17,493 nt of DNA, taken from the NCBI GenBank assembly GCA_003663525.1, contig QMUF01000014.1, positions 1 through 17,493 of the forward strand, given 5' to 3'. Below the pieces are notes generated by a model. The model was given only the letters and a program-made list of their open reading frames with translations. It was not told the origin of the DNA and ran no database searches. This DNA is from Thermococci archaeon (GTDB lineage Archaea; Methanobacteriota_B; Thermococci; Thermococcales; Thermococcaceae). Position numbers and translations under genes: made by a program. Positions 1-17,493 of this stretch are shown here, piece by piece (the stretch's first letter is position 1; every line of letters starts with the position of its first letter).

Positions 1-384
1 ATTGTAGACAGCGAAGCCGGGGCGGAGGTATTCGGACGTGGACTGGCGGAGAAGTTTGACCTAATGGTATGCGTAGCAGAGCCAACCTTAAAATCCCTAA
101 TGATAGCAAGAAAACTCATAGAAATGGGAAAACAGCTTAGCATCTCAAACATACTTCTCGTAATAAATAAGGTTCACGACTTTCTAAAAGCCTCCCAACA
201 TTATGCAAAAGTCTTCTCAGATTCAACCCCCTACCACATTGTAAGCTTTGATGAAAGCGTTATCTCTGTCGATAACGAAGGAAAAGGCGTTGATGCAATC
301 CCAAAGGATTCTCCAATATATAAGGACGTTAACTCCCTTGCAAAAAAGATACTGAGCATAAAAAAGCGTTCAAAGGTGGGATGA
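1..384 (+). CDS. cooC: CooC, CO dehydrogenase nickel-insertion ATPase (3' part; 5' end outside window)
   Basis: The frame is open from base 1, so this is the C-terminal 127 residues of a protein of about 250, cut by the window edge. It starts inside the stretch VDSEAGAEVFGRG, the counterpart of the D-x-EAG-x-E-x-x-GRG segment of CooC in the MinD/ParA-like P-loop ATPase family. The segment MVCVAEPTLKSL and the following NKV strand fit the rest of that fold. CooC hydrolyses ATP to help load nickel into the C-cluster of the CO dehydrogenase CooS. The Walker A site and the expected CXC metal-binding motif lie upstream and cannot be checked. The stop codon is directly followed by the ATG of the CooT-like gene, and hydrogenase genes come next, which supports a CO-oxidation role. 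The identification is strong from motif and context together. Confidence 0.85.
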   Translation: MVDSEAGAEVFGRGLAEKFDLMVCVAEPTLKSLMIARKLIEMGKQLSISNILLVINKVHDFLKASQHYAKVFSDSTPYHIVSFDESVISVDNEGKGVDAIPKDSPIYKDVNSLAKKILSIKKRSKVG

Positions 385-606
385 ATGTGCCAGTCTAAGG
401 TCATACTTCTTGAAGATGGGAAAGCTGAGGTAGTTATGACAGACGTAACTTTGCTCGAAATTAAGGATAACAAGATCATCATCAAAAATTTGCTTGGAAA
501 AGAGCTCGCTCTTGAGGGATACCGAATTGAGTATATCGATTTCATTTCTCATAAGGTGTATCTGAAACTCTCAAGCGGGGAGGAAATAAAAGCTGGTGAA
601 CAGTGA
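385..606 (+). CDS. cooT: CooT-like small nickel-binding protein
   Basis: This 73-residue protein begins MCQSKV. In Rhodospirillum rubrum, CooT is a dimeric protein of about 66 residues starting MCMAKV that binds one Ni(II) through Cys2; it is encoded in cooCTJ and assists CO dehydrogenase maturation. Cys2, the short length, the beta-rich pattern of alternating hydrophobic and charged residues, and the position straight after cooC all match that family. Cys2 is the only cysteine in the protein. The ATG follows the cooC stop without a gap, with GGTGGG at 375-380 as ribosome binding site. Homologues in Thermococcales are often listed as hypothetical. Nickel binding here is inferred from the family. 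No CooJ-like His-rich protein is seen in the window. Confidence 0.72.
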   Translation: MCQSKVILLEDGKAEVVMTDVTLLEIKDNKIIIKNLLGKELALEGYRIEYIDFISHKVYLKLSSGEEIKAGEQ

Positions 607-2519
607 TGGAAGCTCAGATATTGTTGCTACCCATTGGTATATTAATTATAGCGGCACTGATAGGGTTGTCAAAGGCAAAAGTAGTTCTCAAGATAGTAAA
701 CATGTTATCAGCAGTGTCATCAGGAGTAATAATATACGATGGAGTCTTAGGACTTAAAACAACCATTGAGCTTAAATACAACTTGTTCAATTCGTCCTCA
801 TTTTTTGCATCTCTTGACTATCTTGTTTTTAGAGTCGATGCACTCTCAGCCTTTTTTCTGTTGATATTAGGAATCCTAAGCCTTTGCGCATCAGTTTATG
901 GTATCAAATATATGGAAAGGTATTTTGAGAGGGAGGATATGCGTGTTTATACTTTCAACTATCCTCTTTTCATACTGACAATGTACCTTGTGGTGATATG
1001 CTGGAATTTGCTGTGGTTTATAATCTTCTGGGAGCTCATGACCCTGTTTTCACAGTTCTTGGTTGCATTTGAACAGAGAAAGGAGAAGGCTGTAAAGGCG
1101 GCATTCAAATACTTCTGCATGACAAAAGCTGGAGCTGAATTTATTGTTTTAGCTCTTATACTGATAATCCTTAAAGCTACGAACTTTAATGCCAACTACT
1201 CCGAAATTGCTAATGTTCTGCCAGCTTATCTCTCAGTTCATTCGGCAACCCTCTATACCTTAACATTCGCATTGCTCATAGGACTTGGAGTTAAAGCGGC
1301 TATGGTGCCACTTCACTCTTGGCTTCCCGATGCTCACCCAGAGGCTCCGAGCAATGTTTCGGCGTTACTAAGTGGGATTATGATTAAACTACCAATATAT
1401 ATGATGTTCCGCTTTTTCCTTGGCTTTTTCCCATTAAAACCAGAAATTGGAATTGTAATAGCCATATTTGGAATTCTGACACTTTTCTTCAGCATGATGT
1501 ATGCTTTGCTCCAAAAAGATTCAAAACGTTTATTGGCTTTTTCAAGTATAGACAACATTGGATACATCCTTTTGCCAATGGGAGCTGGGATCTACTTCCT
1601 TGCGAATGGAAGTCAGCTTTTTGGAGGCATAGCTCTAGCCGCTGCACTCTTCCATACAATGAACCATGCTTTCTTCAAAGGCCTCCTCTTCCTCACGGCC
1701 GGTTCAGTAATGTATGAAACCGGCACGAGAGATTTAAACTATTTGGGTAGCTTAGCAAAGAAGATGCCTCTAACTGCTTTCACTGCTTTGATAGGGTCAC
1801 TTGCAATAGCGGGTATCCCCCCTCTCAATGGATTTGTAAGCAAATGGATGATTTATATTTCAACACTCACTTCTCCAGCAACTTCACTCTTTGGAATAAT
1901 TGCAATTTTCATAAGCGCTGTAACCCTTGGAACTTTTGTAAAGTACTTTACAGCAATCTTTACAAAACCCCCAGTTAAGGAAATCAACGCAAAAGAAGTT
2001 CCACTCTTAATGTCTGTTTCTCAGCTTCTCTTAGCCTTGCTTTGTATAGTATTTGGAATTTATCCTTTCCTCCCATTGAAAATGATATCTCAAGCCTTAG
2101 GTTCAATAGGTGTTCAAATTCATTTAGACTCTCTTGTAGTTTATCCTTCTCTTGTTGTGCCGAAAACTGGCAACTATTCGCCAATAATAATCTTTGCGTT
2201 CCTGCTAGTTTCAACACTAATAGTCTTGCTGCTTATTCCCTCAAGAGGTGAAGTTGTGCCAACTTGGAAGACTGGGAGAAGCGAAGACCTCAACATGAGC
2301 ATGCCCGCTGATGCGTATTACAGGGACTTTAGAGAGGTTTTCAGGGAAGTCTATACTGTAGGTGACGCCAGTAAGAGATTTGTGCAAAAAATTGCGGAGA
2401 TCGGGGGAATGTTTGGAATCAAGTTTGAAGTCTTGTCCTATGACTTGAACTCAATGCTCTCTATTGCAATGGTCCTGATAGTGATTTTAGTGGCAGTTTT
2501 AGGAGGTGTTGAACTATGA
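606..2519 (+). CDS. Group 4 hydrogenase membrane subunit, NuoL/HyfB-like ion-pumping subunit
   Basis: This 637-residue polytopic membrane protein belongs to the NuoL/M/N-MrpA/D family. Key antiporter residues are present: Glu143 in FWELMTLFSQ (TM5 type), Lys220 and His227 in GVKAAMVPLHSWLPDAHP (TM7 and loop), Lys241 (TM8), His334 and Lys338 in NHAFFKGLLF, and Lys393 after IPPLNGFVSK (TM12). The C-terminal part, from about residue 555, is a charged amphipathic stretch followed by a last membrane helix, as in HyfB/HycC. It should form part of the ion channel of a CO-dependent membrane-bound hydrogenase. An ATG at 606 overlaps the CooT-like stop by one base. GGTGA at 595-599 is well spaced for that ATG and too close for the GTG at 603, so I chose 606. 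Confidence 0.88.
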   Translation: MEAQILLLPIGILIIAALIGLSKAKVVLKIVNMLSAVSSGVIIYDGVLGLKTTIELKYNLFNSSSFFASLDYLVFRVDALSAFFLLILGILSLCASVYGIKYMERYFEREDMRVYTFNYPLFILTMYLVVICWNLLWFIIFWELMTLFSQFLVAFEQRKEKAVKAAFKYFCMTKAGAEFIVLALILIILKATNFNANYSEIANVLPAYLSVHSATLYTLTFALLIGLGVKAAMVPLHSWLPDAHPEAPSNVSALLSGIMIKLPIYMMFRFFLGFFPLKPEIGIVIAIFGILTLFFSMMYALLQKDSKRLLAFSSIDNIGYILLPMGAGIYFLANGSQLFGGIALAAALFHTMNHAFFKGLLFLTAGSVMYETGTRDLNYLGSLAKKMPLTAFTALIGSLAIAGIPPLNGFVSKWMIYISTLTSPATSLFGIIAIFISAVTLGTFVKYFTAIFTKPPVKEINAKEVPLLMSVSQLLLALLCIVFGIYPFLPLKMISQALGSIGVQIHLDSLVVYPSLVVPKTGNYSPIIIFAFLLVSTLIVLLLIPSRGEVVPTWKTGRSEDLNMSMPADAYYRDFREVFREVYTVGDASKRFVQKIAEIGGMFGIKFEVLSYDLNSMLSIAMVLIVILVAVLGGVEL

Positions 2520-3397
2520 ACATCATTTTCATAGCAATCAACTTGGCATTCGCCCTAATCATTGCCCCCCTAATAGATGGTTTTGAGAGAAAAATCAGAG
2601 CACGCTTGCAGAACAGACAAGGGCCATCAATACTTCAGACATGGTGGGACTTAATAAAGCTCTTCAAGAGGCCCACAATTGAACCCCAAGATTCCATTAA
2701 ATCACTTTACAAGCTCGCTCCCTATATAACTTTTACATCTGTTCTGACAGCTTATCTAATAATCCCAACACTCTTACCTGCTTCAACAAACTTCATCGGG
2801 GACCTTATACTTGTTGTCTATCTTCTTGGTTTGGCAACTTTGAGCTTTGTCATAGGGGCATTTTCCTCAGGAAATGCATATGCTCAGATAGGTTCAAACA
2901 GAGATGTTTCCCTCTTTATGAGTGAAGAACTGCTTTTGGCTTTTATCATAGGTACGATAGCTGTAATAGGCAAAAGCCTGAGTTTTGATCAGTTGTTTCC
3001 TTTGCCTTTTAGGATTTCCTCACTCCTTGCATTACTCCTGCTTTTCCTTGTGATATATGTTGCAAGCACTAGATTGCCCTTTGACATTGCCGAAGCTGAA
3101 CCTGAAATAATTGAAGGCCCTCTAATCGAATACAGCGGAAAACATCTTGGCTTACTTAAGTATTTCGTCTTCCTGAAGCGCCTTCTCCTTTACAGCTTGA
3201 TTTTAGACTTCATCATTCCAATCCAGAACCCAATAAGACTCACTTGTTATCTCATTGGCATAATAATTCTCTCAATAGTTTATTCAACATTCGAAGCTTA
3301 TTATGGAAGATTCAGGATTGACCAAGCCATTAGGATACTGAAACGGGCCTCCATAGTGGCATTGATTGTGTGGATGATCGCTGTAGTGGGGTGGTGA
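2516..3397 (+). CDS. Group 4 hydrogenase membrane anchor subunit, NuoH/HyfC-like
   Basis: This 293-residue protein has about eight hydrophobic helices. It is the counterpart of NuoH (complex I), HyfC/HycD and MbhM, the subunit that docks the hydrophilic hydrogenase arm to the membrane arm. Signatures seen are ERKIRARLQNRQGP (residues 24-37, the NuoH RK-x-x-AR-x-Q-x-R-x-GP motif), a cytosolic loop WDLIKLFKRP, YKLAPYI, and the acidic loop RLPFDIAEAEPEIIEGPLIE (176-195), which in NuoH lines the quinone or redox-coupling cavity. Its ATG overlaps the previous stop as ATGA, with a strong GGAGGTG site at 2502-2508, so the two membrane subunits are probably translationally coupled. Confidence 0.9.
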   Translation: MNIIFIAINLAFALIIAPLIDGFERKIRARLQNRQGPSILQTWWDLIKLFKRPTIEPQDSIKSLYKLAPYITFTSVLTAYLIIPTLLPASTNFIGDLILVVYLLGLATLSFVIGAFSSGNAYAQIGSNRDVSLFMSEELLLAFIIGTIAVIGKSLSFDQLFPLPFRISSLLALLLLFLVIYVASTRLPFDIAEAEPEIIEGPLIEYSGKHLGLLKYFVFLKRLLLYSLILDFIIPIQNPIRLTCYLIGIIILSIVYSTFEAYYGRFRIDQAIRILKRASIVALIVWMIAVVGW

Positions 3398-3399
3398 AA

Positions 3400-5010
3400 G
3401 TGATCCTTGAAATCTTAAAGAGTAACAATGCTAAAATTCTAAGACACGATGAAAAAGTTACTGTGGCATTGGTACCCAATGATAAGCTCAGAACTACTGC
3501 AGAGCTACTTTTCAAGGCAGGCTGCTATTATGCAACTGGAGCTGGTGTTGATGAACGCTTATTGGGAGTTGGTTTTTCAATGTATCACATCTTCAACTGC
3601 GAGGTTGAAGGAAGATATATAATCATCAAGGCAGTTGCAAGCAACTTAAAGATTCCTTCAATTACTCCCATTATAAGCGGCGCAAATTGGGCCGAAAGAG
3701 AAGTAATGGACATGTTGGGAATTTTCTTTGATGAGCATCCAGAGCCGGTGAGGCTTATTCTACCTGATGATTGGCCTGAGGGTGTTTATCCACTTAGAAA
3801 AGACTTTCGTTACAATGAAAGGCCTCCAAGAGTTGAATTTGAGCAAAAGAGGGAGAAAAAACCTGGAGTCATAGAAGTTCCAGTTGGTCCCTATCATCCA
3901 GCACTTCATGAGCCGGAAATGTTTGAGCTGTATGTTAAAGGTGAGGAGATAGTTGGAGCAGTGTACAGAGGATTTCATATCCACAGAGGAATGGAAAAAT
4001 TAGCGGAGGGGAGAATGACAATAAATCAGATTCCATTCTTGGCTGAGAGGATTTGTGGAATTTGTGGCTATACTCACAACTGTGCATATGTCCAAGCAAT
4101 TGAAGATGCCGCTAAAATTGAAGTTCCAGAGAGAGCTCTCTACATAAGGACTATACTCCTTGAACTCGAAAGAATACACTCACATATGCTCTGGCTTGGC
4201 GTTGCTTTCCATTTACTTGGCTTTGAGTCTGGATTCATGCATACATGGCGGATAAGAGAGACATTCATGGACCTAGCGGAGCTTTTGACAGGAAATAGAA
4301 AAACCTACGGAATGAATCTCATTGGTGGGGTTAGAAGGAATATAGATGAAAACAAAAAGAAAGGACTCTCGGAAATTTTAGATAAGACGAAAAAAGAGAT
4401 AAGAGAGATTTTTGACAATGCCACACAAATGAGAGAGTTAATAAATAGAATGGAGGGAATCGGAGTTCTCTCAAAGAAGAAGGGAAGAGAAATAGGTGTA
4501 GTTGGCCCAACTGCTAGAGGCTCTGACATTGATACTGATGTAAGGAGAGATCATCCATATGCCGCTTATGGAGACTTAGAGTTCAAAGTTCCCATATATA
4601 AGGATGGGGATGTTCTTTCGAGATTTCTGGTTAGATATGAAGAAGTGCTTGAAAGCATCTGGCTCATTGAACAGGCTTTAGACCAACTACCTCCAGGGGA
4701 CATTCTAAACGAGGAGTATGAACTCCCAGAACACACCATTTGTGTGGGAGCAACTGAAGCTCCGAGAGGAGAAGACGTGCACTTTGCTATAATGGGGGAG
4801 GGCAATAAAGTTTACAGATGGCATCCTAGAGCACCGACTTACAATAACTTGCCTGCAGTCCCTATAATGCTCAAGGGAGAGAAACTGGCCGATGCGCCGA
4901 TAATAATAGCCTCAATAGATCCTTGTTTCTCGTGTACAGATCACATTGTTATTGTTGATGGAGAAAAGGTATACAGGTGCTCTCTTGATAATTATCTTGG
5001 GGGGCTCTAA
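3400..5010 (+). CDS. [NiFe] hydrogenase large subunit with fused NuoC-like domain (HycE/HyfG type)
   Basis: This 536-residue fusion starts with a 30-kDa complex I (NuoC) domain at about residues 1-145, seen by WAEREVMDMLGIFF and PLRKDF. The rest is a NuoD/[NiFe] catalytic domain. The nickel ligands are present as RICGICGYTH (Cys219, Cys222) and DPCFSCTDH (Cys509, Cys512). It should carry the NiFe(CN)2CO site that reduces protons to H2 with CO-derived electrons. A 21-residue tail follows His515, the position where HycE-type precursors are cleaved by a maturation protease, so a processed precursor is likely. CooH of R. rubrum is reported to lack such processing. The start is uncertain: an in-frame GTG at 3370 lies inside the upstream gene. 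I prefer the GTG at 3400, just downstream of GGTGGTGA (3390-3397) and the upstream stop. Confidence 0.92.
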   Translation: MILEILKSNNAKILRHDEKVTVALVPNDKLRTTAELLFKAGCYYATGAGVDERLLGVGFSMYHIFNCEVEGRYIIIKAVASNLKIPSITPIISGANWAEREVMDMLGIFFDEHPEPVRLILPDDWPEGVYPLRKDFRYNERPPRVEFEQKREKKPGVIEVPVGPYHPALHEPEMFELYVKGEEIVGAVYRGFHIHRGMEKLAEGRMTINQIPFLAERICGICGYTHNCAYVQAIEDAAKIEVPERALYIRTILLELERIHSHMLWLGVAFHLLGFESGFMHTWRIRETFMDLAELLTGNRKTYGMNLIGGVRRNIDENKKKGLSEILDKTKKEIREIFDNATQMRELINRMEGIGVLSKKKGREIGVVGPTARGSDIDTDVRRDHPYAAYGDLEFKVPIYKDGDVLSRFLVRYEEVLESIWLIEQALDQLPPGDILNEEYELPEHTICVGATEAPRGEDVHFAIMGEGNKVYRWHPRAPTYNNLPAVPIMLKGEKLADAPIIIASIDPCFSCTDHIVIVDGEKVYRCSLDNYLGGL

Positions 5011-5013
5011 ACA

Positions 5014-5529
5014 ATGGGAAGATTTAAGCTTATTACCAAGGCTATAAGCATTGGAAGAGTAACAGAAAAGTATCCTTTTGTCCCACTTGAAGTTCCAGAA
5101 GGATTTAGGGGAAAGCCAGTAATTGACCCAGAAAAATGCATTGGCTGCACAGCTTGTTCAAATGCCTGCCCTCCTCAAGCATTACAGGTTTATGATGACT
5201 TGGAAAGTGGAGTTAGAGTAGTTCACCTCTTTATAGGAAGGTGCATCTTCTGTGCTCGCTGTCAGGATGTATGTCCCACTGAAGCAATAAAGTTGACTAA
5301 AGAGTTTGAGCTTGCAACATTATCTGATGAAGACCTTCACCAAATAGTAGAACTTCAAATGGTTCGCTGTGAAGAATGTGGTAAACCATTTGATACCTTT
5401 AGACATTTACTTTACACAGCAAAGGAGCTTCAGCCTTGGGAAAGAGAGATGATGTTTCTATGCCCAGAATGTAGAGCAAAGAAAGTTTCTGAGAAATTGA
5501 TCTTTGGGAAAGGTGGGGGATATGTTTGA
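5014..5529 (+). CDS. Hydrogenase-associated 2x[4Fe-4S] ferredoxin-like subunit with extra four-Cys site (NuoI/HycF-like)
   Basis: This 171-residue electron-transfer subunit has two classical motifs: C42-x2-C45-x2-C48-x3-C52-P and C77-x2-C80-x2-C83-x3-C87-P, each able to hold a [4Fe-4S] cluster as in NuoI, HycF and MbhN. It probably passes electrons from the CO dehydrogenase ferredoxin CooF (expected upstream) to the small subunit. A second pair of cysteine pairs, CEEC (119-122) and CPEC (150-153), looks like a zinc-ribbon or rubredoxin-like metal site in the C-terminal third. The gene starts three bases after the large-subunit stop, with a G-rich site at 4999-5004, and its end overlaps the next gene by eight bases. 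Confidence 0.9.
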   Translation: MGRFKLITKAISIGRVTEKYPFVPLEVPEGFRGKPVIDPEKCIGCTACSNACPPQALQVYDDLESGVRVVHLFIGRCIFCARCQDVCPTEAIKLTKEFELATLSDEDLHQIVELQMVRCEECGKPFDTFRHLLYTAKELQPWEREMMFLCPECRAKKVSEKLIFGKGGGYV

Positions 5530-6100
5530 GAAGAGTTTGTGGGTTTTTCACTTAAACAGTGGAGGTTGCAACGGCTGTGACATTGAAGTACTTAACATAT
5601 TCACTCCCAGGCAAGATGTTGAAAGGCTTGGAATTAAGCTTGTTGGTTCACCAAGGCATGCTGATGCGATAGCTTTTACAGGCCCAGTCACAAGAGAGTG
5701 CCTGCCAAAGGTCATTGAAGCATTTAAGGCAGTCCCAGAGCCAAAGATAGTCTTAGCTATTGGCTCCTGTGCTTGTGGTGGAGGAATATGGTACGACACC
5801 TATGCGGTAATTGGGGGCGTGAAAGAGCTGTACAAAATCCTCAAGGAAGAGTATGGCATTGAGCCTCCCACAACAATTTACATTCCAGGTTGTCCTCCTA
5901 AACCAGAGGCAATGATCTATGCTGTAGGGATTGCAAGAGGTTTAGTAAAGCAGAAGCAAAAAAAGGAAATTTATATTGAAGAGCTTGACGAGAAGACAAA
6001 GGATATGATTGAAATTCTCTTTGAGGAAGCAAGGGGAACAAGACACTTTTTACCTCAAATAATTGTTAAAACTTCGGAGGAGAGCAAAAATGAATCTTGA
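5522..6100 (+). CDS. [NiFe] hydrogenase small subunit, NuoB/HycG-like
   Basis: This 192-residue protein carries the ligands of the proximal [4Fe-4S] cluster: SGGCNGCDIE (Cys16, Cys19), GSCACGGGIW (Cys83) and IPGCPPKP (Cys124). It pairs with the large subunit and relays electrons to the NiFe site in the cytosol. It belongs to the compact group 4 small subunits: no Tat signal and no room for medial and distal clusters. After residue 150 there is a charged tail, rich in Lys and Glu, of about 40 residues. I chose the ATG at 5522, preceded by GGTGGGG (5512-5518), over an in-frame start at 5504 inside the preceding gene. It overlaps the ferredoxin gene by eight bases. Confidence 0.92.
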   Translation: MFEKSLWVFHLNSGGCNGCDIEVLNIFTPRQDVERLGIKLVGSPRHADAIAFTGPVTRECLPKVIEAFKAVPEPKIVLAIGSCACGGGIWYDTYAVIGGVKELYKILKEEYGIEPPTTIYIPGCPPKPEAMIYAVGIARGLVKQKQKKEIYIEELDEKTKDMIEILFEEARGTRHFLPQIIVKTSEESKNES

Positions 6101-6374
6101 AAATAGTTTTTTTCTTTTGATGAAGTTTGTCATCCCGGTTTATCTGTTGGCGTTCATCATTTATGCGATTAGAGCTTTCAAGGGCCCAACGATAGTGGAT
6201 ATAATCCTAGCAGTTGACTGTATGAGTTTTGATATTGCTGCGTTTATGGCGATTCTCGCAATTTACTTTAAATCGGCGTTTCTTATTAGTGGAGCAATAA
6301 CACTAGCATTGTGGGCATATCTGCTGGACATTTACATCGCGAAGCATCTGGTTGGCAAGGAGGTGGGAGTGTGA
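6090..6374 (+). CDS. mnhF: Na+/H+ antiporter subunit MnhF/MrpF
   Basis: This 94-residue protein has three predicted membrane helices. The signature FKGPTIVDIILAVD (residues 30-43) matches the GPT-x2-D-x4-ALD motif of MrpF and MbhA. It is the first gene of the antiporter module, which in Mrp and Mbh complexes exchanges Na+ and H+. Here it is fused in an operon to the hydrogenase, so it should turn the energy of H2 formation into a Na+ gradient. The ATG at 6090 follows GGAGGAG (6076-6082) and overlaps the small-subunit gene by 11 bases. A longer frame open from 6063 lies inside that gene and begins with an unlikely basic leader. Confidence 0.88.
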   Translation: MNLENSFFLLMKFVIPVYLLAFIIYAIRAFKGPTIVDIILAVDCMSFDIAAFMAILAIYFKSAFLISGAITLALWAYLLDIYIAKHLVGKEVGV

Positions 6375-6721
6375 GCGAGATTTTATTCTACTTGGGAGCA
6401 GTCATGATAACCATTGGTGGAATTTGTGATCTGTTTGGTGCTCTCGGACTATTAAAATTCCCAAACTTTTACATTCGTTTGCACGCTGCCACGGTAGGAA
6501 CTATTGGCGGGGCAGTAGTGCCGTTATTTGGTGTTGGCTTCCTTGCACTCGGAGCAGATTTCTTACCTCACAAGTATGCAATCGCAGGCGCTAGTTTCGT
6601 GACTGGAATAATTGTCTTACTTGCAGCACCAGCGGGTTCTCACGCTTTGGCCTACGCTGCCCACAAAACTAAAATCGTCAAGTGGGAGCCAAAATGCGAC
6701 CACTTGGAGGTGGAAGAATGA
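6371..6721 (+). CDS. mnhG: Na+/H+ antiporter subunit MnhG/MrpG
   Basis: This 116-residue protein has three hydrophobic segments. The segment from GGICDLFGALGLLKFPNFY through IRLHAATVG is the MrpG/MnhG/MbhC signature, in which the F-G-x-x-GLL-x-FP-x-F-Y-x-RLHA pattern is highly conserved. It is a small membrane subunit of the antiporter module, with no catalytic residues of its own assigned. I chose the GTG at 6371, which overlaps the mnhF stop as GTGA and has a strong GGAGGTG site at 6359-6365. The upstream start at 6311 would lie inside mnhF. The C-terminus is hydrophilic and acidic. Confidence 0.88.
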   Translation: MSEILFYLGAVMITIGGICDLFGALGLLKFPNFYIRLHAATVGTIGGAVVPLFGVGFLALGADFLPHKYAIAGASFVTGIIVLLAAPAGSHALAYAAHKTKIVKWEPKCDHLEVEE

Positions 6722-6972
6722 TTGAAATCCACTTGTTAATGCTCCTTATCACAGTAATCATTGGATTAATATTTTCCTATCTTGCCATAATAGAGAAGGA
6801 TTCGCTCAAGGCCATTGGCTTCTCAGCAGTCCATGCTATTGCTTATGCAATAGCCTTCTACATTCTCATGGCACCTGATATAGTCCTAGCTTATGTAGCA
6901 GTGGCTGTTGGTATCTATTCCGCACTGTTGATCTTTGTGGTGAGTAAAACAGAAAGATATGAGGTGGTGTGA
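6718..6972 (+). CDS. MbhD-like / MrpA C-terminal (DUF4040-type) antiporter subunit
   Basis: This 84-residue protein has three hydrophobic helices. It resembles MbhD and the DUF4040 segment found at the C-terminal side of MrpA. The segment LMAPDIVLAYVAVAVG (about residues 47-62) aligns with the APD-x-ALT-type helix of that family. As in Mbh, this piece of MrpA is a free-standing subunit, and the large NuoL-like half of MrpA is absent from the cluster. The conserved acidic or polar residues of the helix (ALTQ-LLVE in MrpA, ALTE in MbhD) seem to be replaced by Tyr, Val and Ala. The ATG overlaps the mnhG stop (ATGA), with GGAGGTGG at 6706-6713. Confidence 0.75.
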   Translation: MIEIHLLMLLITVIIGLIFSYLAIIEKDSLKAIGFSAVHAIAYAIAFYILMAPDIVLAYVAVAVGIYSALLIFVVSKTERYEVV

Positions 6973-6973
6973 G

Positions 6974-7744
6974 ATGAAGAGGTTAGTTCCGCTCATAATC
7001 CTGCTCATCACAATATTTGGGTTAGCCTACTACATCACTCCAAAACTCCCACAGCAAACTGAACTAAGACCGTTGGGTGAATTCTACCTGAAAAACAGTT
7101 ATTTTGGTGATTATTCCGCAAAGAGCCCCGAAGTTGTAACCTCAATCCTCTGGGACTACCGTGGACTTGATACTCTCTTCGAAACCTCGGTATTCTTCAT
7201 CGCAATAATTGGAAGCTTAACACTCTTCAGACTAAATAAAAAGCAAGAAGAAGAGGCGAAACAAAAGGCAGAAGAGTTTAGGATTGGTTTAACTCTTATT
7301 ATAAAGTCGGTTACAAGGGTTATTGTAGTCATGATTCTTGCAGTTTCGGCTTCAATAGCTTTGCACGGCCACTTGACTCCTGGCGGCGGCTTCCAAGGTG
7401 GTTCAGCACTAGCAGTAGCGCCCTTGCTAATAATTGCAGCTTACTCCAAGTATGCTTTAGAAGAACATGGTTTGGACAAGACTAGGGCTTTAATCTTCCG
7501 TTCTATTGGTCTCTTAGGAATTGCCCTCGTAGCATTAGTCCCCTTGCTTAGTGGTGGCTTCCTAATGCAGAACCAACCGATTTTTCCAGCCAAGCTTGGA
7601 GGACAGCTTGTAAGTGGTTCATTGATTTACTACAACTTCTTTGAATTCCTGGCAGTTGGAGCTGGGTTCACGGCAGTATTCTTACTCCTAGCAATTCCGG
7701 AAAAAGTATTCAAGAAGTTCTTGAGGAGGGAAGCCAATGAATGA
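6974..7744 (+). CDS. mnhB: Fused MbhE-like + MnhB antiporter subunit
   Basis: This 256-residue protein joins two units that are separate (MbhE and MbhF) in the Mbh hydrogenase. Residues 1 to about 86 resemble MbhE, the last part of MrpA: a membrane helix, then VVTSILWDYRGLDTLFE and a second helix. A charged Lys/Glu-rich linker (about 88-102) follows. Residues 105-256 are MnhB/MrpB (Pfam PF04039 type), with HGHLTPGGGFQGG at 131-143. The protein is a membrane subunit of the antiporter module. The upstream ATG at 6959 lies inside the previous gene. I chose 6974, preceded by GAGGTGGTG (6961-6969), one base after the previous stop. Confidence 0.86.
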   Translation: MKRLVPLIILLITIFGLAYYITPKLPQQTELRPLGEFYLKNSYFGDYSAKSPEVVTSILWDYRGLDTLFETSVFFIAIIGSLTLFRLNKKQEEEAKQKAEEFRIGLTLIIKSVTRVIVVMILAVSASIALHGHLTPGGGFQGGSALAVAPLLIIAAYSKYALEEHGLDKTRALIFRSIGLLGIALVALVPLLSGGFLMQNQPIFPAKLGGQLVSGSLIYYNFFEFLAVGAGFTAVFLLLAIPEKVFKKFLRREANE

Positions 7745-8150
7745 AGTTATAACATTCATCTGGACAGTTATTATATTATCTCTGATTGCAACAGTCATAA
7801 TAAGCCTCTATGGAATTGCGAGGAGACCTAACTTAACCAAGAAACTCATTGCATTGACAATCTTCACTGACACCGCTAACTTGCTTGTCGTTTTACTCGG
7901 ATATCGCTTAATTTATCCGGTAGCACCCCCGGTTTTACCAAGCTTTAGCAAGGAAGCTCTTCAAACTTTTGTTAAGACTGCTGTAGATCCTCTCCCACAA
8001 GCATTTGTAATCACTGCTGTTGTCATTGGAATGGCCGTAAACGTACTCATAGCCTTTGCAATAATTCAAATTTACCGTTTATATGGGACTGTGGATGCAA
8101 GAAAGCTTGGTGAAAAGCAGTCTACTCTACTAAAGGAGGGTGGAATATGA
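7737..8150 (+). CDS. mnhC: Na+/H+ antiporter subunit MnhC/MrpC (NuoK-like)
   Basis: This 137-residue protein has three membrane helices and belongs to the NuoK/MrpC/MbhG family. The segment DPLPQAFVITAVVIGMAVN (about residues 83-101) is the MrpC signature DPLPQALVLTAIVIG. It overlaps mnhB by eight bases and has a GGAGGG site just upstream (7725-7730). Compared with bacterial MrpC (about 112 residues) it has a longer loop between helices two and three (LIYPVAPPVLPSFSKEALQ) and a charged C-terminus. It is expected to sit next to MrpD in the ion-translocating membrane arm. Confidence 0.88.
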   Translation: MNEVITFIWTVIILSLIATVIISLYGIARRPNLTKKLIALTIFTDTANLLVVLLGYRLIYPVAPPVLPSFSKEALQTFVKTAVDPLPQAFVITAVVIGMAVNVLIAFAIIQIYRLYGTVDARKLGEKQSTLLKEGGI

Positions 8151-8632
8151 GGGGTATAATTTCCACTGCAGTGTTGACATTCATCACTTACATCCTATTT
8201 AGTGGTTCAACAAAGCCATTCGACTTAGTTACAGGGATAATTGTTGCTGTTGGAGTGGGCCTGCTTGTTGGAAAATATCTCGTTCAGAATGATGCTAAGG
8301 CTTTGAATCCACTCAGGTGGCTCTGGGGTGTGATTTATTTCATCTGGTACATGCTTGTCGCAGAAACAAAAGCACACTTGGATGTGATGATGAGGGTAAT
8401 AACTGGGAAGTACGAGGCCGGAATTGTTAAAGTACCAATTGAGGTGAAGACTGATTATGCAAAAACTCTCATTGCAAATTCAATAACGAACACTCCAGGA
8501 ACTGTCGTGGTTGACTTGGATGACAAATATATGTATGTAAATTGGATTAATGTGATTACGGAAGAACCTGAAGAAGCAAAGAAAAAGATTTGCGAGGATT
8601 TTGAACGCTTTGCTAAGAAGATTTTCGAGTGA
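8147..8632 (+). CDS. mnhE: Na+/H+ antiporter subunit MnhE/MrpE
   Basis: This 161-residue protein has two or three N-terminal membrane helices followed by a cytosolic domain, the layout of MrpE (Pfam PF01899). The stretches TKAHLDVMMRVITGK and TLIANSITNTPGTVVVDLD match the family motifs, where the latter is the conserved LAN-x-IT-x-TPGT-x-x-x-D segment. MrpE is a structural or assembly subunit needed for antiport in bacterial Mrp. The ATG overlaps the mnhC stop (ATGA), after GGAGGGTGG (8135-8143). It ends 11 bases before mnhD. Confidence 0.9.
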   Translation: MRGIISTAVLTFITYILFSGSTKPFDLVTGIIVAVGVGLLVGKYLVQNDAKALNPLRWLWGVIYFIWYMLVAETKAHLDVMMRVITGKYEAGIVKVPIEVKTDYAKTLIANSITNTPGTVVVDLDDKYMYVNWINVITEEPEEAKKKICEDFERFAKKIFE

Positions 8633-8643
8633 GGTGGCGAAGA

Positions 8644-10206
8644 ATGAATGTTATTGGTTTAACTCCGATAATTCCAATCGTCTTTGCATTTGCACTCCCG
8701 TTATTCTCAATCCTAATTAAGGGAAACAGAAAAATCATTCAATTTTATGCTTTAATTGGAACTGGATTAACTTTAATCTCTTCATATAAATTATTCCAAT
8801 TGGGCTACTCTTCAAATGTTCCCCTAGTCTATACTTTTGGCAAGTGGATTGCCCCAATTGGAATTGTCTACGAGGTTGACAAGTTAAATGCCTTAATTGC
8901 CTTGCTCACTGCTGGATTAATGTTTTTAATTGCAATCTACAGTTATCGTTATCTCGAACACGATGAAGGCTTGGAGTGGTATTACACTCTCTACCTCGGC
9001 CTTGAGGCCGGTCTACTCGGAGTTCTCTTGACAGGTGATGCTTTCAACCTCTTTGTTATGATTGAAGTCACAAGCATAGCAGCTTATGCATTAGTAATGT
9101 TTTATCGCGACAGGGGTGATTCAGTTTTTTCTGGATTAAAATACGCTTTAATAGGAGCTACTGGAACGACAATGTACTTCCTCGCCTTAGGAATGTTTTA
9201 TGGCACATTTGGTACAGTTAATTTTGCTGATTTATCTGCAAAGGTTCATGGCCTAAGCTTCCCAGTTAGTGGAATGCCAGCTGGTAACATCGTAATTACC
9301 TCGGGTATTGCTTTAGCGTTAGCCACGTGGGCGTTCCTTATCAAGGCGGCCATTGTCCCAAACCACTTTTGGCTTCCAGAGGCCCACCCAGCAGCACCAA
9401 GCCCAATTTCAGCAATCCTCTCTGGTTTGGTCGTTAATGTTGGTGTTTATGCGTTGATTAGATTTTTGTACACTGTTTATGGGGGTTCTTTAGCTCCAGA
9501 ATTGGCTCACGTAGTCAGCCTGCTCAGTGTTATTGCCATTGCTCTTGGTGCTGTTTCAGCACTTTTTAGTGCTTTGATGATGAATGTCCAAAAAGACGTT
9601 AAGAGGCTTATAGCGTATTCAACTATAATGCATATGGGTTACCTTTTCATGGCTGTTGGTTTGGGGACAGAATTAGGCTTACAAGCAGCATTGTTCCATT
9701 TGGTTAATCATTCCATTGCCAAGGCATTATTATTCCTCGCGGCCGGAATCTTCATTCATGCTATTGGGTCTAGGAACATTGAAGATTTGTCTGGAGTGGG
9801 AAGAAGAATGCCGATTGCTACCTTCTCACTAGCAATTGCAACATTAAGCTTGGTCGGTATTCCACCACTTAACGTGTTCTTCAGCAAATTATTATTATTC
9901 AACGCCTTCATTGATAAAAACCTGATTTTGGCTTGGATCCTTGTTATAAGCTCGGTAATTGCGTTGATTGCATACATGCGCCTCTTCTATGTCATCTGGT
10001 TTGGAAAACCGAAAGAAGATATAAAAACCAAAGAACCACTCAGCATGAGCCTAACTTGTCTGCTGTTAGCATTAACATGTCTCGCAATTGGACTGATGGC
10101 ACCAACTATCGTAGACAACTTCATAGCCCCTGCAGCGGCACAAACGCTAGATTACAACAGCTATATAAACGCAGTCTTAAATCTCCTCTCAAAACTTCTT
10201 CACTGA
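8644..10206 (+). CDS. mnhD: Na+/H+ antiporter subunit MnhD/MrpD (NuoN/M-like ion-pumping subunit)
   Basis: This 520-residue polytopic protein is related to MrpD and MbhH. Glu141 (FVMIEVTS, TM5), Lys224 (FLIKAAIVPNHFWLPEAHP, TM7) and the TM12 lysine in IPPLNVFFSK are present, as needed for proton or sodium translocation. The TM8 position that carries Lys in NuoM and in the NuoL-like subunit of this operon (SG-x-x-x-K) is Asn255 here. The segment HLVNHSIAKALLFLAAG matches the family's His/Lys broken helix. It is the last gene of the operon: T-rich sequence and a new promoter follow. I chose the ATG at 8644 with GAGGTGG at 8631-8637. The earlier GTG at 8629 overlaps mnhE. Confidence 0.9.
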   Translation: MNVIGLTPIIPIVFAFALPLFSILIKGNRKIIQFYALIGTGLTLISSYKLFQLGYSSNVPLVYTFGKWIAPIGIVYEVDKLNALIALLTAGLMFLIAIYSYRYLEHDEGLEWYYTLYLGLEAGLLGVLLTGDAFNLFVMIEVTSIAAYALVMFYRDRGDSVFSGLKYALIGATGTTMYFLALGMFYGTFGTVNFADLSAKVHGLSFPVSGMPAGNIVITSGIALALATWAFLIKAAIVPNHFWLPEAHPAAPSPISAILSGLVVNVGVYALIRFLYTVYGGSLAPELAHVVSLLSVIAIALGAVSALFSALMMNVQKDVKRLIAYSTIMHMGYLFMAVGLGTELGLQAALFHLVNHSIAKALLFLAAGIFIHAIGSRNIEDLSGVGRRMPIATFSLAIATLSLVGIPPLNVFFSKLLLFNAFIDKNLILAWILVISSVIALIAYMRLFYVIWFGKPKEDIKTKEPLSMSLTCLLLALTCLAIGLMAPTIVDNFIAPAAAQTLDYNSYINAVLNLLSKLLH

Positions 10207-12308: not shown

Positions 12309-15059
12309 TCACTCCTTCCAAAACTTTCTTGTTCTTATGTATCTTCTTTCGGCCTCAAGCAGTGCAACAAGAAGAGCTTCCCCCTTATACTGACTTAGAA
12401 GCCTTGCGGCGGTATCAGGCCCTACACCATAACTCGCAAGTGCCAAAACCGCATCAAATCCATAAACCTTAAGGAGATCACTAGCCTTTATCAACCTTCT
12501 ATATGCGCTCTCCTCCTCTTTTTCAAGACCCTCTTTTCTGTTGAGTTTCTTCAACGCTGAAACAAATAACTCAGCATCTATTGGATGTGCCACAGTGACC
12601 ATAAGAGAGGAGCACTTTGGACATTGTAAATGTTCAAGCCTATTCTTTAAGCGTGAGACCCTTGTAGTGCTTTTCCATCCACAGTTTGTGCATATTAAAG
12701 CAACTTCAGTATTTAGAAGGCGCTCTTTAAATAACATAAGAATCTCATCTTTCTCGAGTTCTCCTCCTACAAGAAATTCTCCTCCAATATTCAAATTAAT
12801 GACTGCAAGGGGGGAAGGCTCCTTCCTTAAAACTCCTTTAATCCTGATCCTCCCCTCCTTCAAAACCCTTAAAACCTCCCCTGCCCTTTCAATATCAATT
12901 TTATCATGGAATAATTCGTTTAAAGTTTCCCTCTCAATCACAGTATTTTCAAAGAGTCTCTCCACTTTCCTTATCCTTGCCTCTTTCCTTAAAACCCCTA
13001 TTCTCTTTGCAACATTCAACATTCTCCACCTGTAAGGTGAACTTCCTCTCAGTCCTCTGGAGATGACAAATTCAAGGACCCTATGATCCTGGAGAAGATA
13101 TTCCTTTACTTCTTTGGGGTTGACCTGAAATGGAGTCCGAATAACTATTGCATGAGCTTGAGCCTTCATTACAAAGACTTTTCCATATTTTGCTGCCAAA
13201 AACGCCATTAAAAATCTGCCAATGGCTTCATTAGCTTGATTACCGAAATCTGCATGAATAACTAAGGCCTTTGGGATGGATTCTAAACCTATGTCTCTAT
13301 CAGTTCCCAAGGGTTCTTGCTTTTCCAGAATATTCTTTACAAGTTTTAGATCCTCCTCCCGAAAATCTACAAGTGAGATTGACCTCCTAGCAGAACTAAA
13401 ATCAAATAAGAGTTCTCGTTTGAGTTTTCCAACTTCTAATGCAACCTCAAATGGAACAGGGATCATTTCTCCCTCCCAACTTGGTACAGCACTCTGCAAA
13501 CTCTTACTCTCCCTAACTCTAAGGAGCCTAGATTCCTCATCGACTCCAAGCAACATCCAGCTTCTTCCGTGCATAATAAACTCCATACCCTCTTCTAAAT
13601 CCATTACAAAGCTCTCGTCCAAACGACCAACAATTCTTCCACTCTTAACGTCAAAAACACGGTAGCTAATCTCATCGGGAATCGTGGAAAGGTTTTCATA
13701 GTAGTACTGATACGCTCCTCTTCTCAGGTATAAAAGGCCACTATCCTCATCATAACCAATTAAGCGTGCGTCACTTAACATGTGGAGAACTGCCCCGTAA
13801 TCTTCCCATGTTAAGTCTCTATAGGGATATGCTCTCTTAGCAATCTCAAATGGGGCCTCTTTTGGCAATCTTCTGTGTTCCATTAAAAGCCCAACTATAA
13901 AATGGCCCAAAACATCAAGGGCATTCTTATATGGCCTTACTGCCTCAAGTTTACCTTCTAAAGCCCTTTTAGCAATAATCAAGCTTTCTAAATAATCTTC
14001 CACATTGGTAGTAATGATATAACCCTCACTCACCTCTCCGGCCCTATGTTTTGAACGCCCGATTCTCTGGATAAGTCGATTAACCTGCCTTGGGCTCATA
14101 TACTGGATAACAACATCCACCTCACCTATATCTATCCCAAGTTCCATCGAAGAAGTACAAACCAAGGCCTTAATACTCCCTTCTTTGAGTGCTTTCTCAG
14201 CTTGAACTCTGGCCTCCTTAGAGAGACTTCCATGATGAACTTCAACAGGCTTTCCCCAAGCTTTAAAACGATGGGCCAAGATTTCAGCAAATTGTCTGGT
14301 ATTTGTGAAGACTAAGGCCCTTTCGTACTTTTCAATTATTTCCCACAAAACTCGTAAACGAGTGGCAACATCTAAAGGGACACTTAATTTCCTAGAGAGC
14401 TCAATGTCCCTTTCATCCGGCTGAGGAAAGAGGACATTAACTTTATACCCTTTTTCTATCGGTGGTCTAACTACTACATCAGCCTTAAGCCACGTCTTAA
14501 TCTCTTCTTCATTTCCGACAGTTGCAGAAAGACCAACTCTTTGAAATTCTGCAATTTCGGCAAGTCTCTCAAGTGCTAAACTGAGTTGTGCTCCTCTTTT
14601 GTTATCAACGAGCTCAACTATCTCATCAACCACCACAAATTTAACATTTGAAATGGCCTTACGGAGAGATTTCATTGTAAGAATGATTCCAAGAGTTTCA
14701 GGAGTGATAATGAGAACATGTGGAGGCTTTTTTACCTGTTGGGCCTTCCTATATGCAGAAGTATCCCCATGTCTAACCTCCACATTAAGGTTTAACTTTT
14801 CCCCCCACCAGAGCAACCTATCTAAAAGATCCCTATTAAGAGCCTTTAAAGGAGCTATGTAAAGGGCAGAAATTGGTTTTAGACCATCTTCTAAGATTGC
14901 ATTAAAAACCGGCAACACTGCCGCTTCAGTTTTTCCACTTCCTGTAGGAGCCACTATTAAAACACTCTTTCCAGAGCTAACCTCCTCAAAAGCCTTCATC
15001 TGAAGCTCATTAACCCCTCCAAATTTTTCCTTTATAGCTTTTTTCAGGAGAAAGTGCAT
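12309..15059 (-). CDS. lhr: Lhr-type superfamily 2 helicase
   Basis: This 916-residue Lhr-core protein is an ATP-dependent translocase proposed to act in nucleic acid repair or RNA metabolism in archaea. In order it has: Walker A APTGSGKT (near residues 37-44); IAPLKALNRDL (Ia); ITPETL (Ib); motif II VVDEIVEL, where DExH helicases have DEIHEL; motif III GLSATV; a second RecA domain with TNTRQ, HHGSLS, CTSSMELGIDIG and motif VI QRIGRSKHR. A winged-helix region and a DEAD/H-associated domain (about 340-770) follow. The C-terminus has a four-Cys zinc-type site (Cys790, 793, 813, 816). Two starts are possible: a GTG at 15092 overlapping the dehydrogenase stop as GTGA, and the ATG at 15059 that lies about 25 bases from a TATA box. 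I prefer the ATG, which would be leaderless. Confidence 0.9.
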   Translation of the reverse strand: MHFLLKKAIKEKFGGVNELQMKAFEEVSSGKSVLIVAPTGSGKTEAAVLPVFNAILEDGLKPISALYIAPLKALNRDLLDRLLWWGEKLNLNVEVRHGDTSAYRKAQQVKKPPHVLIITPETLGIILTMKSLRKAISNVKFVVVDEIVELVDNKRGAQLSLALERLAEIAEFQRVGLSATVGNEEEIKTWLKADVVVRPPIEKGYKVNVLFPQPDERDIELSRKLSVPLDVATRLRVLWEIIEKYERALVFTNTRQFAEILAHRFKAWGKPVEVHHGSLSKEARVQAEKALKEGSIKALVCTSSMELGIDIGEVDVVIQYMSPRQVNRLIQRIGRSKHRAGEVSEGYIITTNVEDYLESLIIAKRALEGKLEAVRPYKNALDVLGHFIVGLLMEHRRLPKEAPFEIAKRAYPYRDLTWEDYGAVLHMLSDARLIGYDEDSGLLYLRRGAYQYYYENLSTIPDEISYRVFDVKSGRIVGRLDESFVMDLEEGMEFIMHGRSWMLLGVDEESRLLRVRESKSLQSAVPSWEGEMIPVPFEVALEVGKLKRELLFDFSSARRSISLVDFREEDLKLVKNILEKQEPLGTDRDIGLESIPKALVIHADFGNQANEAIGRFLMAFLAAKYGKVFVMKAQAHAIVIRTPFQVNPKEVKEYLLQDHRVLEFVISRGLRGSSPYRWRMLNVAKRIGVLRKEARIRKVERLFENTVIERETLNELFHDKIDIERAGEVLRVLKEGRIRIKGVLRKEPSPLAVINLNIGGEFLVGGELEKDEILMLFKERLLNTEVALICTNCGWKSTTRVSRLKNRLEHLQCPKCSSLMVTVAHPIDAELFVSALKKLNRKEGLEKEEESAYRRLIKASDLLKVYGFDAVLALASYGVGPDTAARLLSQYKGEALLVALLEAERRYIRTRKFWKE

Positions 15060-15080
15060 GATAGAAAAAGTGAAAGAGGG

Positions 15081-15088
15081 TTTAAAAA
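15081..15088 (-). promoter_or_regulatory. TATA box for lhr, giving a leaderless transcript
   Basis: On the minus strand the sequence TTTTTAAA has its centre about 25 bases before the ATG at 15059, the distance expected between box and transcript start. No ribosome binding site precedes that ATG, only a pyrimidine-rich stretch, so the message would begin at the start codon. The box sits next to the last codons of the upstream dehydrogenase gene, whose stop is at 15089-15091. Confidence 0.5.
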
Positions 15089-16231
15089 TCACTCGCCATA
15101 ATAAGCTTTCCTATACAGCTCTTTTATGTCTCCAATGCTAGGTTCTACAGGGTTAAAATTAACTAAAGGATCATTATAAGCCTTTTCTGCCATTTCATCG
15201 AGCTTTGAAAGGAGTGTTTCTTCATCAACAAGCTCATTAAGCTTTGGAACTCCAAGCATTTCATTGAACTCTTTAATGACTTCAAGAAGCTCTTCAGATG
15301 TATTAAACCCTATCTCTTTGGCTATCTTGGCATATTTCTTCCTTGTACTTTCATCCTTCATGTTAAAATTTATTACATAGGGCAGAAATATTGCATTAAG
15401 CAAGCCATGTGACCCTATCCAAGCGGCCTTATGACTTAAACTGTGGCATATTCCAAGGCGAGCATTTAGAAACGCTATTCCTGCCATAGTTGCAGCATAG
15501 TGAATCTTTTCCCTTGCTTTCCCATCACCCTTAACCGACAAAGGAAGCCATTTAAAGACTGTTTTTATAGCCCCCAATGCCATAGCATCACTAAAAGGAG
15601 TTGCCACCTTTGTTGTATAGGCCTCTATACCATGCACCAAAACATCTAAGCCACTATTTCTGGCAATCTCTTCTGACATCGTTCTTGGTAACCTTGGATC
15701 AAGAATTGCATACTCTGGAGCAATTTCGTAGGAAACAAGGTTATATTTTGCTCCATCTTTTTTGAGCACGCTAGCTGCAGAAACTTCACTTCCAGCCCCA
15801 CTTGTGGAAGGTATAGCTATCAAAGGAGTCTTAAGTTTAGGGATAATTCTAACTGGTCTTGTGAATCTATTAAGAAAAGCTACTTCCTCAAATCCCAAAT
15901 CAGGCACTTCATAAAACACCTTTATAGCCTTTGTTATATCTATTACACTTCCACCACCAAGGGCAATAAGTAAGTCAGGAGAGAACTCCCTAACCCTTGG
16001 AAGGATCTCTTCTACGTCTTCATAAGTTGGCTCAGCCGATAAACCCTCTATAGCATCCACTTCCGCACCGGCCTCTTCTGCATAGTCCATAACCTCATTC
16101 AAAAACCCGTGAATACGCATAGATTTACTTGAAAGTATCATGACTCTTTCATAATTCCTAGCCACACTTTCTATATATCTTAAACTTCCCTCTCCCATAA
16201 TTATCCTCGTCTTTAAACTGAAAAACCTCAT
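15089..16231 (-). CDS. Iron-containing (group III) alcohol dehydrogenase
   Basis: This 380-residue protein belongs to the Fe-dependent alcohol dehydrogenase family, NAD(P)-linked cytosolic enzymes that interconvert alcohols and aldehydes. GGGSVIDITKA (92-102) is the dinucleotide pyrophosphate-binding motif. Asp196, His200 (GLDVLVHGIEAY), His263 (CHSLSH) and His275 (GSHGLLNA) are the expected metal ligands. The last two are 12 residues apart, two fewer than in E. coli FucO. In Thermococcales such enzymes may dispose of aldehydes from fermentation. The actual substrate is unknown and a glycerol dehydrogenase-like role is possible. Three starts lie close together. I chose ATG 16231 because GGTGA (16238-16242) is five bases ahead of it. 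Confidence 0.88.
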   Translation of the reverse strand: MRFFSLKTRIIMGEGSLRYIESVARNYERVMILSSKSMRIHGFLNEVMDYAEEAGAEVDAIEGLSAEPTYEDVEEILPRVREFSPDLLIALGGGSVIDITKAIKVFYEVPDLGFEEVAFLNRFTRPVRIIPKLKTPLIAIPSTSGAGSEVSAASVLKKDGAKYNLVSYEIAPEYAILDPRLPRTMSEEIARNSGLDVLVHGIEAYTTKVATPFSDAMALGAIKTVFKWLPLSVKGDGKAREKIHYAATMAGIAFLNARLGICHSLSHKAAWIGSHGLLNAIFLPYVINFNMKDESTRKKYAKIAKEIGFNTSEELLEVIKEFNEMLGVPKLNELVDEETLLSKLDEMAEKAYNDPLVNFNPVEPSIGDIKELYRKAYYGE

Positions 16232-16261
16232 GAGCATCACCAGAAAAAATAAGGAATGAGG

Positions 16262-16269
16262 ATATTTAA
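16262..16269 (-). promoter_or_regulatory. TATA box for the Fe-alcohol dehydrogenase gene
   Basis: On the minus strand TTAAATAT lies in the 56-base gap after mtnA. Its centre is about 25 bases before 16240, which would start a short leader carrying GGTGA before the ATG at 16231. This suggests the dehydrogenase is transcribed apart from mtnA. Confidence 0.5.
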
Positions 16270-16287
16270 CTCTTCTTGGACAACCAA

Positions 16288-17352
16288 TTATTCAAAAAGT
16301 TTCTTTAAATTCCTTTCAAACGGTGGGTACACTACTCCTCTGTCAGTAATTATTGCCGTTAGGTATTTATGGGGTGTTACATCAAAGGCAGGGTTATAAA
16401 CATCAACATTTGGGGCTATTTTGCATCCTCCACAGGTTAATACTTCCTCTTTTGGTCTCTCTTCAATTGGAATCTCCTTTCCGCTCTTAAGGTTCATATC
16501 AACTGTGGAAATTGGTGCAATTGTGAAGAACGGGATTTTATGTTCCTTTGCAAGCACAGCCAGAGAATAGGTCCCTATTTTGTTGGCAAAATCACCATTG
16601 GCGACTATTCTATCTGCACCAACGATTATCGCATCCACCTTTCCCTGTTGCATGATAAATCCCGCCATATTATCGCTTATTAACTTTAGTGGAATTCCAT
16701 CGTAGTGATATTCCCAAGCAGATAAGCGGGCCCCTTGAAGCACAGGCCTTGTTTCATCAACCCATAGAAGTTTGAGCTTTCCCTCTCTATGCATCACTCT
16801 TAACACCGCTCCAACTGTGCCGAGATGCACCGTGGCTAAGCTACCTGCATTGCAATGTGTTAGAACATTCCCTTCAGGGAGAATCTCGGCTCCATAATGG
16901 CCCATTCTAAGGTTCGCCTCAACATCTTCATCTGCTATCTTGTGAGCCTCTTCAATAATCAGCTTCTTTATTGTGTCAAGATTATCCTCCTTATGCTCCT
17001 CTACAAGACTTTTAATCCTATTAAGGGCCCAGAAGAGGTTAACTGCAGTTGGTCTGGTATTTTTAAGGATTTCAAATGCTTTGTAAAACTCATCGAAAAA
17101 CTTTTCCTTTGTCTTTGCGTTACTCTTTTCTGCAAGCAAAGCCAATCCATAAGCAGCCGTTGCACCTATAGCTGGAGCACCACGAACTTGAAGGGTTTTT
17201 ATGGCTCTAGCAACTTCCTCAACTTTTTCCAATGCTATTACTTTGAACTCGCTAGGAAGCAAAAGCTGATCAATAAGATACACTTTTCCTTCTCTAAATT
17301 CAACACTTCTAGGAAGTCTCGTCAATTCCTCAGGTTTATACTTTATTTTCAT
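16288..17352 (-). CDS. mtnA: Methylthioribose-1-phosphate isomerase MtnA (eIF2B-alpha-like fold)
   Basis: This 354-residue enzyme of the methionine salvage pathway converts 5-methylthioribose-1-phosphate, formed from methylthioadenosine, to methylthioribulose-1-phosphate. Motifs are VRGAPAIGA (56-64) for phosphate binding, LTHCNAGSLATVHLGT (164-179) with catalytic Cys167, DNMAG, and GADRIVANGDFANKIGTY (245-262) with catalytic Asp247, then FDVTP near the end. These fit MtnA better than the related archaeal ribose-1,5-bisphosphate isomerase, and the length fits. Such genes were once annotated as initiation factor eIF-2B. I chose ATG 17352, preceded by GGTGGTGGTTGG, over GTG starts in that purine-rich site. 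No other salvage gene is in view. Confidence 0.9.
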   Translation of the reverse strand: MKIKYKPEELTRLPRSVEFREGKVYLIDQLLLPSEFKVIALEKVEEVARAIKTLQVRGAPAIGATAAYGLALLAEKSNAKTKEKFFDEFYKAFEILKNTRPTAVNLFWALNRIKSLVEEHKEDNLDTIKKLIIEEAHKIADEDVEANLRMGHYGAEILPEGNVLTHCNAGSLATVHLGTVGAVLRVMHREGKLKLLWVDETRPVLQGARLSAWEYHYDGIPLKLISDNMAGFIMQQGKVDAIIVGADRIVANGDFANKIGTYSLAVLAKEHKIPFFTIAPISTVDMNLKSGKEIPIEERPKEEVLTCGGCKIAPNVDVYNPAFDVTPHKYLTAIITDRGVVYPPFERNLKKLFE

Positions 17353-17369
17353 TCCAACCACCACCACCC

Positions 17370-17493
17370 TTTCTTCACTGAATGATTTAAAGTTTGCTTT
17401 TACTCAACAAGTTTTTACTTCCAGTATTGTTAACAATACTGGAAGTAAAAACTTGTTGAGTAAAAGCAAACTTTAAATCATTCAGTGAAGAAA
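17370..17493. repeat. Perfect 124-bp inverted repeat reaching the window edge
   Basis: Bases 17370-17431 and 17432-17493 are exact reverse complements, 62 bases each, with no spacer and no mismatch. The centre lies inside GTATTGTTAACAATAC (17424-17439). The outer end equals the window end, so the full length is unknown and could be longer. The left arm contains the mtnA promoter. It is either a fold-back or contig-end artefact or a real symmetric structure. Confidence 0.95.
17386..17391 (-). promoter_or_regulatory. TATA-like box for mtnA (inside the palindrome)
   Basis: On the minus strand CTTTAAATC gives a TTTAAA core whose centre is about 25 bases from 17363. This would start a leader of about 11 bases carrying GTGGTGGTT before the ATG at 17352. 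The perfect inverted repeat places an identical box at 17472-17477 facing out of the window. Confidence 0.5.

Follow-up and report, generated by a model that had tools for sequence, protein, structure and literature searches.

A perfect 124-base palindrome at a contig end upstream of mtnA in a Thermococcales draft genome is very probably an assembly turn-back

Cells do not stably maintain long palindromes that lack a spacer. In de Bruijn graphs, neighbouring contigs share exact sequence of one fixed length at their ends, and with an odd k no k-mer can be its own reverse complement, whereas a (k+1)-mer can. A path that turns back crosses such a self-complementary (k+1)-mer and then meets itself. 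Fold-back chimeric reads are described for human libraries in the PDSM model, where they arise from natural inverted repeats or palindromes (PMC10908179). For hydrothermal metagenomes assembled by JGI, two reports give a MEGAHIT k-list ending in 123 (PMC6258724; PMC8065059). The palindrome analysed in this study resembles the self-complementary edge of an odd-k graph of the MEGAHIT type in that a perfect palindrome of 124 bases, without a spacer, terminates the contig, and in that other contig ends of the same draft genome share exactly 123. The comparison with an odd-k assembler was made through a toy walk only, and an even-k assembler would fit equally well if k were 124 and its contigs overlapped by k-1. 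Like the PDSM reads (PMC10908179), the palindrome joins a strand with its own inverted complement within a single molecule; in contrast to that model, whose starting point is a natural repeat of inverted type or a palindrome, no such structure is seen at this place in relative G009.

The window, a stretch of 17,493 bases, is the complete contig C14 (G000:C14:1-17493) of a Thermococcales draft genome (1623465 bases, 220 contigs, completeness 82.83). Its last 124 bases, 17370-17493, are equal to their own reverse complement, with two arms of 62 nt, 100% reverse-complementary and with a spacer of 0 nt, which confirms the perfect palindrome at the window edge described in the first-pass annotation. 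The runner-up spacerless palindrome in the whole window has arms of only 8 bases, so a chance origin is excluded. The centre of symmetry is 64 bases away from the mtnA reading frame, on its upstream side (Table 1). The window edge was also found to be the end of the record: C14 fits into the length order of the contigs (C13, 17741; C15, 17477), and the same locus fetched with flanks (L095, length 1794) stops at 17493. Because the palindrome is truncated by the contig end, its true extent may exceed the observed one.

Table 1. Features at the right end of the window
Feature	Coordinates	Strand	Basis
mtnA, S-methyl-5-thioribose-1-phosphate isomerase	16288..17367	-	NCBIfam TIGR00512, 428.4 bits, cut-off 279
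Inner arm, genuine mtnA upstream region	17370..17431	-	62/62 bases identical in G009
Centre of symmetry; homology to G009 ends here	17431..17432	.	G009 match starts at 17431
Outer arm, reverse-complement copy of inner arm, judged artefactual	17432..17493	+	Perfect complement; 17/62 vs G009

When 84 contigs of this genome were examined at both ends (168 ends; 26 further contigs reading as N only were left out), a terminal palindrome of more than 8 bases turned up once, at the right end of C14. Among 80 mtnA loci (the best 80 of 335 relatives) the longest terminal palindrome at either end was 10 bases, a figure that gives no proper base rate because many of these loci stop short of a contig end.

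The mtnA reading frame was called from a GTG at 17367, although the true start may be the ATG at 17352, which follows a GGTGGTGGT stretch. The assembly contains one mtnA, its two other matches being 37% and 29% identical, and the closest public relatives of the window gene, within the best 80 of 335, belong to Thermococcus and other Thermococcales genomes. The inner arm carries the 17-base stretch AAAGCAAACTTTAAATC at 17384-17400, which can be read as a putative TATA-like element and which also occurs upstream of mtnA in all three relatives compared (G009, G005 and G010); the inner arm is thus the normal mtnA upstream region. A mirror copy of this stretch stands at 17463-17479 in the outer arm. 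The inner arm is real DNA, and the outer arm almost certainly an untrustworthy backward copy without function.

Relatives were compared across the centre by a DNA search of window 17442-17200 against 61 genomes, the own genome included, of which 19 matched. The best other match was G009, in which homology starts at base 12 of the query (window:17200-17442:-), the last base of the inner arm; the outer-arm count in Table 1 refers to an ungapped comparison at the corresponding place. G005 and G010 share non-symmetric sequence that runs through the centre, and differ from G009 there by substitutions, G010 also by an insertion. The symmetry is absent at the centre in all three genomes, and the proposed comparison with the mtnA upstream region of close relatives therefore returned ordinary, non-symmetric sequence. 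The upstream regions of 20 Thermococcales loci from a protein-based scan (L003-L022) were indecisive, two of them (L004 and L005) sharing the TATA-like stretch with divergent sequence further upstream; the closer relatives from the DNA search settled the matter. As a separate observation, the G010 locus (L098) carries upstream of mtnA an insertion of 46 alignment columns between a conserved TTGTTGA and GTAAAAGC. This insertion includes a hairpin-like CCTCCTCCCCGCCCTAAAGGACGAGGCTTTC stretch and presumably resembles the ends of IS200/IS605-type elements.

The natural neighbour of the inner arm was found on another contig of the same genome. In G009, the 1500-base stretch on the upstream side of the centre contains a reading frame of 391 residues that is divergent from mtnA (L096 107-1282). 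The same stretch is present in the own genome as C99:1-1453 with a 96% match; other own-genome matches to it are weaker (C72, 67%; C175, 52 bases at 94%). The first base of C99 corresponds to base 1453 of L096, 47 bases short of the centre at 1500. The end of C99 showed no fold-back and is not palindromic. The likely chromosomal order, as read from these alignments, is C99, an unassembled gap of about 47 bases, and C14.

The length of the palindrome can be compared with the sharing between other contig ends. Among the 168 ends examined, exactly 123 bases are common to C152_L and C172_R (a dovetail) and to C188_L and C18_L (a common prefix). Since these two end pairs are independent, the overlap length of the graph is taken as 123, a value that rests on the two exact pairs together with one near pair, C2_R and C173, which have 119 bases in common, spanning bases 5 to 123 of the C173 end. 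Seven other end-shared stretches of 21 to 50 bases count against a fixed length of 123: C14_L/C140 (26 bases), C181_R/C4_L (50), C173_R/C181 (25), C2_R/C181 (21), C146_R/C154 (34), C154_L/C146 (23) and C8_R/C13_L (24), the last an exact dovetail. The palindrome of 124 bases is one base longer than the 123-base overlap. Sharing of 123 bases fits k = 123 or k = 124 with contig overlaps of k-1, and a self-complementary 124-mer fits both. The draft genome may come from a MEGAHIT run with a k-list ending in 123.

We ran a toy unitig walk on window 15001-17431, to which a fold-back arm of 62, 100, 400 or 1500 bases was appended. The walk stopped at an edge whose reverse complement had already been used, a rule of our own and not that of a real assembler. 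At k = 123 the walk ended on a palindrome of 124 for all four fold-back lengths, and at k = 23, 55, 77 and 99 on one of k+1, in four of four cases each; the length of k+1 follows because our stop rule imposes it. At k = 127 and 141 the three longer arms again gave k+1, and the arm of 62 bases gave 124 as a plain tip. Thus, a fold-back of 62 bases also yields 124 at k above 123, and the length alone is no proof. As the graph accounts for the observed length, 62 bases per arm is a minimum for the fold-back only.

We consider it very probable that the palindrome is an assembly turn-back artefact and not a chromosomal feature. The first-pass annotation had favoured a fold-back chimera or the collapse of a contig end at a hairpin, a reading that gains support from the relation of 124 to 123+1, from the non-symmetric relatives and from the position of the C99 end, 47 bases from the centre. 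In the proposed mechanism, the stretch of about 47 bases between C99 and C14 would have been left unassembled, fold-back sequence at this place would link the region upstream of mtnA with the reverse complement of that region, and the graph path would cross a self-complementary 124-mer, the (k+1)-mer at k = 123, enter its own reverse complement and be cut there. A fold-back chimera formed in the library is the likeliest source of the first fold-back, although no natural inverted repeat is seen at the turn in G009. Priming on a natural short inverted repeat at 17421-17442 had been put forward as a possible origin. No such repeat was seen in G009, which has an identical inner arm, although the species of the window may differ beyond the centre: within 80 bases of the centre in G009 the longest spacerless arm is 3 bases, and with loops of up to 29 bases a single repeat appears, with 6-base arms and a 25-base loop, about 50 bases away towards mtnA.

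Much the same trace would be left if some or all cells carried a true head-to-head duplication, centred on 17431/17432 and with each arm at least 62 bases long, that the assembler had collapsed. The toy fold-backs of 62 to 1500 bases all end at 124 at k = 123, which makes a long duplication compatible with the observed length, and a single mtnA in the assembly is also what a collapsed copy would give. Against this stand the natural upstream neighbour on C99, the instability of such palindromes in cells and the lack of a duplication at the centre in G009, G005 and G010, and we regard such a duplication, which had been offered as an alternative, as highly unlikely. The slight probability left to it reflects that its assembly would collapse into an identical contig end. 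There is a similarly slim chance that part of the source population carried a real spacerless inverted duplication, for example as an amplification intermediate in a hyperthermophile.

The two TATA-like stretches in mirror positions would suit a functional symmetric element, with two identical divergent promoters around a central operator. In relatives, such an element would be expected to be conserved in both arms, but only the inner arm is matched in G009 (Table 1). Homology to G009 stops at the centre and not at the end of the element, nothing in G009, G005 or G010 corresponds to the outer arm at this position, the length equals the contig overlap plus one, and C14 carries no gene beyond the palindrome. 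The divergent double promoter suggested earlier is accordingly disfavoured, to the point of being extremely improbable. The insertion in G010 shows that the upstream region can take insertions, as would be needed for a mobile palindromic (MITE-like) element that had landed upstream of mtnA and was truncated where the contig stops. Yet the arm is nothing other than the upstream region of mtnA, conserved throughout in G009, and a search of the own genome with 17300-17493 returned no further copy at E <= 0.001, a search that short contigs reading as N may escape; there is hardly any probability left for a mobile element.

With an assembly turn-back as the preferred reading, the last trustworthy base of C14 would be 17431. 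A perfectly palindromic contig end exceeding the assembly's overlap by one base is a readable sign of such a turn-back, and spotting it avoids the annotation of false palindromic elements or false divergent promoters.

Two further observations concern the remainder of C14. At window 1-102, its left end and the end of C140 overlap in the opposite sense for 102 bases (94%), a pattern that would suit a mixture of two strains or copies in the bin; because this overlap is inexact, it yields no overlap length. Window 603-10206 holds a cluster of hydrogenase or complex-I-like subunits and Mrp antiporter-like subunits, with Pfam matches above the cut-off; the NCBIfam matches of the two large membrane subunits in it are below their cut-offs. 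Clusters of hydrogenase or complex-I-like and Mrp antiporter-like subunits are known from Thermococcales.
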